Assembly: GCA_016861045.1 (NCBI GenBank)
Contig: BOKP01000002.1
Location: forward strand, 124,001 to 188,000
DNA: 64,000 nucleotides
Direction of reading: 5' to 3'
From: Actinomycetes bacterium
GTDB lineage: Bacteria > Actinomycetota > Thermoleophilia > Solirubrobacterales > 70-9
In this document: one piece after another, positions 7,331 through 27,384 of the stretch
Position numbering within the stretch: position 1 is the first letter of the stretch
How the letters are laid out: each line of letters starts with the position of its first letter
Position numbers and translations under genes: made by a program
Notes under the pieces: generated by a model
Databases searched by the model: none
What the model was told of the DNA's origin: nothing
The model's input: the letters and a program-made list of their open reading frames with translations, nothing else

Positions 7331-8209
7331 CTAGATCGTGACGCTGACGCCCTGCTGGGCGATGAGGATCGCGGCGGCGAAGAAGACCACGCCGAGCCCC
7401 GCCATCGCCGTCAGCTCCGCCGCGAGCGTCTCGCGCCGGGCCAGGCTGCGCTCGGCCGCGACGACGATCAGGGCGCCGATGGCGCCGCCGACGATGCCGC
7501 CGAGGTGTCCGCCGACGCTTATGTTGGAGGCCGCGAAGGTGAACACGAGGTTGATCGCGAGCCAGAACGCGAGTTGCTGGACGACCTCCATGTGGCCGCG
7601 CTGGCGGGCGATGAGGATCGTTGCCACGAAGAGGCCGTAGATCGCCCCCGAAGCGCCGACGGTGAAGGTGACCGGATCCGACATCAGCAGCGCCCCGACT
7701 GCGCCCGCGATCAGCGAGACGAGGTAGACGGCAACGAAGCGCACCGTGCCGATCGCCGGCTCGAGCACCTGGCCGAGGATGAACAGGACGAACATGTTCA
7801 GCGCCAGGTGGATGATCCCGCCGTGGAGGAAGCCGGAGGTGACCACGCGCCACCACTCGCCGCCGTCGGAGCGGATCAGCTCGCCGCCGCCGCCGCAGAT
7901 GCCGCCGCCGCCGACCGCGTTGCCGCAGAGGGCGCCGTCGGCAAAGAGCCAGCCGTCGGTCCCCGACGGCCCGCCGCTGAGCAGCTGGAGGAAGAAGACG
8001 GCGACGTTGATCCCGATCAGGACGAACGTCGCCTGCATCCGCCCCGAGCCCATCGAGCGCGCGGTCCGGACCTCGGTCCGATCCCGGGCGCACTCGGGAC
8101 AGCGCATGCCGACCGAGGTGGGGACCATGCAGTCAGGGCAGATCGGCCGGCCGCAGAGCGAGCAGGCGACGCCGGTCTCGCGGTCGGGGTGTCGGTAACA
8201 GGCAGCGAT
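7331..8209 (-). CDS. Rhomboid family serine protease with N-terminal zinc finger; apparent ATC start
   Basis: About 292 residues if read from the ATC at 8207-8209. Residues 4-40 form the Cys-rich zinc finger typical of actinobacterial rhomboids: CYRHPDRETG, then CSLCGRPICPDC and CPEC. Six membrane helices follow, with HGGIIHLALN, the catalytic Ser in VGASGAIYG (S187) and His in GGHLGGI (H235). It should cleave membrane proteins within the bilayer. The first ATG of the frame (8126-8128) lies inside the finger, after five of its Cys. No ATG, GTG or TTG occurs in frame between there and the divergent gene. The ATC would give MAACYRHPDRET, the expected N-terminus, and it lies exactly 6 nt after TACGCT. 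I therefore propose AUC initiation on a leaderless mRNA. Confidence 0.85.
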   Translation of the reverse strand: MAACYRHPDRETGVACSLCGRPICPDCMVPTSVGMRCPECARDRTEVRTARSMGSGRMQATFVLIGINVAVFFLQLLSGGPSGTDGWLFADGALCGNAVGGGGICGGGGELIRSDGGEWWRVVTSGFLHGGIIHLALNMFVLFILGQVLEPAIGTVRFVAVYLVSLIAGAVGALLMSDPVTFTVGASGAIYGLFVATILIARQRGHMEVVQQLAFWLAINLVFTFAASNISVGGHLGGIVGGAIGALIVVAAERSLARRETLAAELTAMAGLGVVFFAAAILIAQQGVSVTI

Positions 8210-8215
8210 CGCGGC

Positions 8216-8221
8216 AGCGTA
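8216..8221 (-). promoter_or_regulatory. Candidate -10 box of the rhomboid gene
   Basis: Read on the minus strand this is TACGCT, separated by 6 nt (GCCGCG) from the proposed ATC start at 8209-8207. The same hexamer class and spacing precedes many ATG and GTG starts in this window, for example at 9744-9749 and 36453-36458. No convincing -35 is visible. Confidence 0.5.
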
Positions 8222-18922: not shown

Positions 18923-18928
18923 TACCCT
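18923..18928 (+). promoter_or_regulatory. Candidate -10 box of the 51-residue membrane protein gene
   Basis: TACCCT followed by 6 nt (AGAGCG) and ATC at 18935. It is embedded in the palindromic stretch CTACCCTAG, which on the other strand reads TAGGGT and could serve the PHP gene. This would be a back-to-back promoter sharing one melted region. Confidence 0.5.
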
Positions 18929-18934
18929 AGAGCG

Positions 18935-19090
18935 ATCGCGACCCTCGCCGACATCGCCATCGCGCTCGGCTCGTTCGCCGTAGCGGCGCTGCTCGCCGCC
19001 GCCCTCGGCGCCGCCAACGCGGGCACCGCCCTCGGGGTCGGCCAGGTCGTCTTCGCCTTCGTGGTCACGGCGCTGCTCGTCCTCCGCTGA
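18935..19090 (+). CDS. 51-residue membrane protein with apparent ATC start
   Basis: The frame runs from an in-frame TGA at 18905 to the stop at 19088-19090 and contains no ATG, GTG or TTG until deep inside the second hydrophobic segment. Read from ATC at 18935 it gives a plausible two-helix protein: MATLADIAIALGSFAVAALL, a short GAANAGTALGVGQ turn and a second helix ending in LLVLR. The ATC lies exactly 6 nt after TACCCT. I do not know a function. It is squeezed between the PHP gene and ispD. Coding is supported by the periodic hydrophobicity and third-position GC, but expression is unproven. Confidence 0.55.
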   Translation: MATLADIAIALGSFAVAALLAAALGAANAGTALGVGQVVFAFVVTALLVLR

Positions 19091-19102: not shown

Positions 19103-19831
19103 TCAAGCCCGGGCGGCGATCAGCGCCTCGGCGGCGGCGAGGTCGGCACCGGTCGTCACCTTCAGGTTCGTCGCCGCGGACTCCTCCAGCAGGACCCGCC
19201 CGCCGGCGAGCTCGATCAGCGTCGCCTCGTCGGTGGCCGCGTCGAGGCGGCCCGTCGCCGCCGCCCGCTCCTGAGCGGCCCGGAGCGCCGCGGCGCGAAA
19301 GGCCTGCGGCGTCTGCGCCGCCCAGAGCAGGTCGCGGTCGAGCGTCCGCTCGACGACCGTCGCCCCGGGCCCGCCGCCGCGCCGGTCGCGGGCCCGCTTG
19401 ACGGTGTCGGTGAGCGCCGACGCGGCGATCGCCGCGTCCGCCCCGGGCTCGGCCCCGAGGCGGAGGATGACGCGGTCGACGAGATCGGCAGTGACCAGCG
19501 GCCGGGCCGCGTCGTGGATCGCGACGACCTCGCCGTGGACCGCGGCGAGCGCGCGCTCGATCGAGGCGGCGCGGCTGGCGCCACCGGGGACGACCGCGAC
19601 CTCGGCCTCCGGCGCCGCCCGCGCGGCGGCGCTCTCCGCCGCGGCCTCGTGGCCTGGCGGGGCGGCGATCACGATCGGGCCGACCGAGCGAGCGGAGTGC
19701 AGGGCCTGCAGCGACCACTCCAGCAGCGCCCTGCCGCCGAGCTCGACGAACGCCTTCGGGCCGCCGGCGCCGAGCCTCCGCCCGGAGCCGGCGGCCGCGA
19801 CGACGGCCGTTGCGCGGCGCGCGGAGCTCAG
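19103..19831 (-). CDS. ispD: 2-C-methyl-D-erythritol 4-phosphate cytidylyltransferase, apparent CTG start
   Basis: A 242-residue MEP-pathway enzyme that couples MEP with CTP. The nucleotide-binding start is AVVAAAGSGRRLGAGGPKAF, followed by PGGASRAASIERAL, VAIHDAARPLV, AAQTPQAFR and ATDEATLIE; these are all family signatures. The required N-terminus begins at or before 19800, but the first ATG/GTG/TTG in frame is at 19672, inside the domain. The only reasonable start is CTG at 19829-19831, whose last two bases are the start of the carD stop (CTGA overlap). This is analogous to the ATGA and GTGA couplings used elsewhere here. Leu-codon initiation by coupling is inference. Confidence 0.9.
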   Translation of the reverse strand: MSSARRATAVVAAAGSGRRLGAGGPKAFVELGGRALLEWSLQALHSARSVGPIVIAAPPGHEAAAESAAARAAPEAEVAVVPGGASRAASIERALAAVHGEVVAIHDAARPLVTADLVDRVILRLGAEPGADAAIAASALTDTVKRARDRRGGGPGATVVERTLDRDLLWAAQTPQAFRAAALRAAQERAAATGRLDAATDEATLIELAGGRVLLEESAATNLKVTTGADLAAAEALIAARA

Positions 19832-26862: not shown

Positions 26863-26868
26863 TAGCCT
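26863..26868 (+). promoter_or_regulatory. Candidate -10 box of the GNAT gene
   Basis: TAGCCT followed by 6 nt (CCCGGG) and ATC at 26875. The first three bases are also an in-frame TAG, so translation of the GNAT frame cannot begin further upstream. Confidence 0.5.
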
Positions 26869-26874
26869 CCCGGG

Positions 26875-27384
26875 ATCGCCGCCGCGATCGACATCCGGCC
26901 CGCCGAGCGCGCCGACCTGCCCCGGATCTTCGCGATCTACAACCGCGAGGTCGTCGGCGGCACCGCGACCTTCGACATCGACACCCGCGAGCCGGGACGG
27001 GACGACGGCTGGCTCACCGAGCGCGCTCCCTACCACCCGGTGACGGTCGCGGTCGACGGCTCCGGCGGGGTCGTCGGCTGGGCCGCGATCGGCCCCTGGT
27101 CGCCGCGCGGCGCCTACCGCCGGACCGGCGAGACCTCGGTCTACGTCGAGCCGGAGCACCGCGGCGCCGGCATCGGCAAGGCCCTGCTCGCCGACCTCGT
27201 CGAGCGCGCCCGCGGGCTCGACGAGATCCACGTCCTCCTCGCCCGCATCTCGCAGCCGAACCCGGCCAGCGTCGCCGCCCACACCGCCGCCGGCTTCCGC
27301 TCCTTCGGCGTCCAGCGCCGCTGCGGCGAGAAGCTCGGCCGCATCCTCGACGTCGAGCTGTTCGACCTCGATCTCGACGGGTGA
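26875..27384 (+). CDS. GNAT acetyltransferase, phosphinothricin/methionine-sulfoximine type; apparent ATC start
   Basis: About 169 residues from the ATC at 26875. The fold begins AIDIRPAERADLPRIFAIYN, with the GTATFDIDTRE segment of Pat-like enzymes, GWAAIGPWSPRGAYRRTGE, the acetyl-CoA loop EPEHRGAGIGKALL and NPASVAAHTAAGFRSFG. It should acetylate an amino-acid-like amine. The first ATG/GTG/TTG in frame is the GTG at 27040, which would remove a third of the domain. An in-frame TAG at 26863-26865 limits the start to a 12-nt longer window. The ATC lies exactly 6 nt after TAGCCT, as in two other genes here. Confidence 0.88.
   Translation: MAAAIDIRPAERADLPRIFAIYNREVVGGTATFDIDTREPGRDDGWLTERAPYHPVTVAVDGSGGVVGWAAIGPWSPRGAYRRTGETSVYVEPEHRGAGIGKALLADLVERARGLDEIHVLLARISQPNPASVAAHTAAGFRSFGVQRRCGEKLGRILDVELFDLDLDG

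Follow-up and report, generated by a model that had tools for sequence, protein, structure and literature searches.

A 64,000-nucleotide stretch of the genome of an Actinomycetes bacterium from the class Thermoleophilia (assembly GCA_016861045.1, contig BOKP01000002.1, positions 124,001 to 188,000; hereafter the window) carries a GNAT acetyltransferase gene whose predicted start codon is ATC. As a first-pass annotation had noticed, the reading frame is closed upstream by an in-frame TAG (26863-26865), which is followed by CCT CCC GGG and then by ATC (26875-26877), and from this ATC the frame stays open on the forward strand through a TGA at 27382-27384. The first ATG, GTG or TTG is a GTG at 27040, which lies 55 codons past the ATC and, as had also been claimed, within the fold: PF13420 (Acetyltransf_4) aligns from its profile position 1 at residue 7 of the product, so a start at this GTG would cost the domain its first third. 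An independent codon-usage score, from a model trained on the window, places the onset of coding at exactly 26875. The sequence upstream of the ATC, TCATCTAGCCTCCCGGG, lacks GGAG, GAGG and AGGA, and thus offers no Shine-Dalgarno sequence. The product matches PF00583 (E = 2e-14; 54.3 bits against a Pfam gathering cut-off of 20.7) and resembles ArsN1 and phosphinothricin acetyltransferases, below the assignment cut-offs for both; the ArsN1a arsinothricin N-acetyltransferase model (NF040503), for example, gives E = 1.3e-34 and 119.3 bits against an equivalog cut-off of 170.

The ATC stands exactly 6 nt after TAGCCT, as the first-pass annotation had counted; this hexamer is a -10 element of the form TANNNT, with the TAG as its first half. 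Genes without a leader are recognized by a -10 element 6-9 nt before the start codon, which is the arrangement found here; the RTG rule for mycobacterial leaderless genes, by which the start is AUG or GUG, does not describe this gene, as its codon is ATC and no ATG or GTG is available. To place this in context, we surveyed starts in 864 kb of the genome (73% GC), using gene models built from a simple codon-usage score instead of an established gene caller. TANNNT lies 6, 7, 8 and 9 nt before 30, 21, 14 and 13, respectively, of 542 canonical starts, compared with about one at distant spacings, and a Shine-Dalgarno-like sequence precedes just 156 of the 542. This spacing peak, together with the scarcity of Shine-Dalgarno sequences, is the pattern to be expected of leaderless mRNAs. 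Because a 6-nt spacer puts the -10 element in frame with the gene, a TAGNNT or TAANNT version necessarily brings an in-frame stop with it, and the stop before ATC that was first noticed can be read as part of a -10 element, with the ATC as the leaderless start behind it.

The comparison of start codons in orthologues that had been proposed as a check turned out in favour of the ATC. In two other species of the genus the start region reads TTTACT-GCAGGG-ATC (G001) and TAGCCT-GCAGGG-ATC (G002), the latter frame being closed by the same in-frame TAG, and a 58% homologue in another family (G057) has ATG at the aligned position. The codons that separate the ATC from the conserved IDIRP have diverged, and one in-frame codon has been gained or lost among the three species, while the ATC is unchanged. 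The absence of a standard start could also mean that the frame is a pseudogene, or that a sequencing error masks a canonical start upstream. Both ideas had been named as possible refutations and both seem scarcely credible: the frames are intact and dN/dS, the ratio of non-synonymous to synonymous substitution rates, is ∼0.25-0.37 in all three pairwise comparisons, indicating purifying selection; the coding signal begins at 26875; the same ATC recurs in two further genomes, one of which (G002) shares the TAG and the frame; and six other genes of the genome have the same arrangement.

Support for the AUC start from its anatomy and conservation leaves one competitor close by, namely initiation at another non-standard codon just downstream on an mRNA beginning at ∼26875. 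A second in-frame ATC at 26887, four codons on (I-D-I-R), is likewise kept in all three species, two residues ahead of the point where the family profile sets in, so that a product beginning M-D-I-R-P is conceivable; the CTG at 26917, 14 codons downstream, had been put forward as well. We consider such a start unlikely. Either codon would require a short leader without a Shine-Dalgarno sequence, both the spacing rule and the ATG of G057 indicate 26875 and not 26887, and in the rhomboid family described below the codon aligned with ATC is itself the start. The CTG can be discounted further, as it encodes the Leu that is conserved in DLPRIF, a motif within the Pfam domain.

The first-pass annotation had called this gene the tightest of three cases, which are very probably the three sites in the window that match TANNNTN6ATC, and all three hold up as gene starts (Table 1). 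Their number is not unusual (three against a mean of 1.75 in shuffled sequence), yet all three coincide with gene starts. In the rhomboid protease gene, ATC follows TACGCT or TACCCT plus 6 nt in this genome (G000) and in G001 and G002. Among 26 readable relatives from other genera, 23 have ATG, GTG or TTG three to four codons before CYRHP, the place at which the ATC aligns, and two more have an ATG slightly farther upstream. The remaining case encodes a 51-aa membrane protein with no match in Pfam or NCBIfam. Its orthologue in G002 reads TAGCCT-ATTCCG-ATC, with the frame again closed by that TAG, and ATG or GTG stands near the aligned place in several other genera. The family is conserved across genera of the order.

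Table 1. Features of the predicted ATC-start genes in the window.
Feature	Position	Strand	Basis or remark
-10 promoter element TAGCCT	26863..26868	+	TAG half is the in-frame stop; kept in G002, TTTACT in G001
ATC, proposed leaderless start and approximate +1 of transcription	26875..26877	+	6 nt past the -10 element; three species; ATG in 58% homologue
GNAT acetyltransferase gene, 169 codons plus stop, ArsN1/phosphinothricin-acetyltransferase-like	26875..27384	+	Pfam, NCBIfam, dN/dS
Second in-frame ATC (IDIRP), main alternative start	26887..26889	+	Kept in three species within conserved coding sequence
First in-frame canonical codon, GTG, within the fold	27040..27042	+	Frame scan
-10 element TACCCT, second case	18923..18928	+	Pattern scan
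51-aa membrane protein gene, start ATC 18935	18935..19090	+	ATG/GTG near the aligned place in relatives
-10 element TACGCT, third case	8216..8221	-	Pattern scan
Rhomboid protease gene, start ATC 8209-8207	7331..8209	-	PF01694, 1.3e-30

Genome-wide, TANNNTN6ATC occurs at 27 sites, seven of which are convincing gene starts; the other ∼20 were dismissed as internal, preceding genes with a canonical start, or non-coding. Beyond the three in the window, the convincing starts belong to an EgtB-like enzyme, a DivIVA-like coiled-coil protein, a 214-aa protein and a lipoprotein. The DivIVA-like gene, which has no Pfam match and was named from reading its sequence, has ATC in three members of the genus, ATA in G005 and ATG in G004, all at one aligned position. 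Comparative support is lacking for two of the seven, as the lipoprotein gene has no orthologue in the genus and the 214-aa gene has none that covers the N-terminus. The latter (G000:C1:590244, reverse strand) has ATC after TAGACT plus 6 nt and no canonical codon for 95 codons; it adjoins a second, related coding region (C1:590934-591212, reverse strand), and a similar neighbouring pair is present in G002 and G007. In the 864-kb survey, 127 gene models have no canonical start near the coding start. Near those starts TANNNT lies 6 nt before an in-frame codon three times, and all three codons are ATC, compared with an expectation of ∼0.003 from background frequencies (0.0002 per position for TANNNT and 1.4% for ATC, over 1,108 positions).

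The EgtB-like gene gives the strongest family-wide result. Its product falls short of named assignment (333 bits against a cut-off of 360 for EgtB; 317 against 420 for SenA), and at 27 of 30 loci in the family, spread over nine genera, TANNNT is followed after 6 nt (25 loci) or 7 nt (two loci) by ATC (25 loci) or ATT (two loci). Six of these 27 loci, drawn from five genera, lack any canonical codon between 30 codons upstream and ∼25 downstream; in G001 none appears until 104 codons into the frame. Not all loci are equally unambiguous: G002 and several genomes of g3, g8 and g11 could instead start at a GTG four codons further along, and G071 carries an ATG immediately before the ATC. Retention of a weak start over about nine genera would suggest selection, for example for expression that is low or responsive to initiation factors.

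The initiation machinery itself looks normal. Of 39 tRNAs detected, one has initiator features and the anticodon CAU, and the sole one with GAU is an ordinary tRNA-Ile. Initiation factor 3 (IF3) is present, full-length and closely aligned with that of relatives. Altered machinery as a cause was sought in two forms, an initiator tRNA that reads AUC and a missing or degenerate IF3, and neither was found. With no altered component to explain the predicted use of AUC, a leaderless route on 70S ribosomes is the explanation we infer. In this genome and in relatives (loci L319-L342) the GTG start of infC directly overlaps a TAG (TAGTG), an arrangement that is strikingly constant.

Taken together, these features make it highly probable that translation of the GNAT gene starts, with no leader, on an AUC at the very 5' end of its mRNA. 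With the -10 element TAGCCT ending 6 nt short of the gene, the promoter would direct transcription from the A of ATC 26875, or from within one base of it, yielding an mRNA without a leader. Its 5' end would be bound by ribosomes, probably 70S monosomes preloaded with the initiator fMet-tRNA (anticodon CAU), and initiation would take place on the terminal AUC even though the third codon position is mismatched. The predicted N-terminus is fMet-Ala-Ala-Ala-Ile-Asp-Ile-Arg, from which the Met is probably removed. The same TANNNT-6 nt-AUC arrangement probably drives six or more further genes in this genome, as well as the EgtB-like gene over much of the family, with AUU and AUA serving, rarely, as leaderless starts beside AUC. 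We also lean, with less assurance, towards the broader proposal that in this one family of Thermoleophilia (Actinomycetota) AUC, and occasionally AUU or AUA, forms a regular class of leaderless start, with selection having kept the weak start of the EgtB-like gene.

Several results weigh against leaderless AUC initiation and its generality. The -10 element of the GNAT gene in G001, TTTACT, is weaker. The raw TANNNTN6ATC pattern is not enriched genome-wide (27 sites against 37 in a reversed control), and over all positions near gene starts ATC at TANNNT plus 6 nt was seen three times with 1.55 expected, which is not significant; the signal emerges solely where a coding start lacks a canonical codon, and in alignments of orthologues. 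Scanning 400 kb from each of G004, G038 and G040, which represent one other genus and two other families, revealed no ATC start at spacing 6; the EgtB-like gene aside, this genus may therefore be where the habit is strongest. Finally, in mycobacteria AUG and GUG alone initiated leaderless translation, ATC being the negative control of the reporter assay (PMC4633059), a result that conflicts with leaderless initiation at AUC.

The ATC might instead be kept as part of the promoter, an initiator element at +1, with the protein starting elsewhere, since in all cases it occupies the expected positions +1 to +3. We regard this as quite improbable: the lack of genome-wide enrichment counts against such an element too, several of the genes offer no alternative start codon over a stretch of 38-104 codons, and in relatives the position alternates solely with ATG, GTG, TTG, ATT and ATA. 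Variation confined to AUN, GUG and UUG is the behaviour of a start codon and not that of a codon for isoleucine.

As for the surroundings, the GNAT gene is flanked by clpC (divergent) and greA (convergent), both named from the flanking translations. Elsewhere in the window, an IspD-like gene (19103-19831, reverse strand; named from its sequence) has no ATG, GTG or TTG near its start. A CTG at 19829-19831 on that strand overlaps the stop of the upstream gene (CTGA). Both G001 and G002 retain it, which points to coupled re-initiation with CTG as the start codon.

The prevailing view is that leaderless initiation requires AUG (in Escherichia coli) or AUG or GUG (in mycobacteria). A lineage that regularly used leaderless AUC with a normal-looking initiator tRNA and IF3 would make the way ribosomes read 5' ends directly testable. 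Gene callers restricted to ATG, GTG and TTG truncate, misplace or lose such genes, and the rule of a -10 element plus 6 nt provides a simple means of finding them.

Deinococcus deserti is rich in leaderless mRNA. A 2010 paper by Baudet et al. reportedly used proteomics to find non-canonical initiation codons in that species. The Deinococcus-Thermus group resembles the present case in having a -10 motif ∼6-7 bp upstream of the open reading frame, leaderless expression and mis-annotated starts; a text search of the paper for ATC or AUC gave no hit (PMC12340547). The literature that we searched for AUC starts, or for leaderless genes in this class, contained no report of natural leaderless AUC starts. 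AUC, AUU and AUA are known as rare start codons (PMC9094748, PMC4611024), and according to one review GUG, UUG and CUG are unable to replace AUG on leaderless mRNA (PMC4611024). Starts of the infC type share with ours the use of near-cognate AUN codons, against which IF3 discriminates, but they are rare and lie on leadered mRNAs (PMC4611024, PMC9094748), whereas our AUC is predicted to be 5'-terminal and has no Shine-Dalgarno sequence. The leaderless mRNAs of mycobacteria, members of the same phylum, likewise have a -10 element adjoining the gene, no leader and a start at or near the 5' end; there the start is AUG or GUG, whereas here AUC occupies the predicted start (PMC4633059). On this comparison we rate the predicted leaderless AUC initiation as a new form of the known leaderless initiation.
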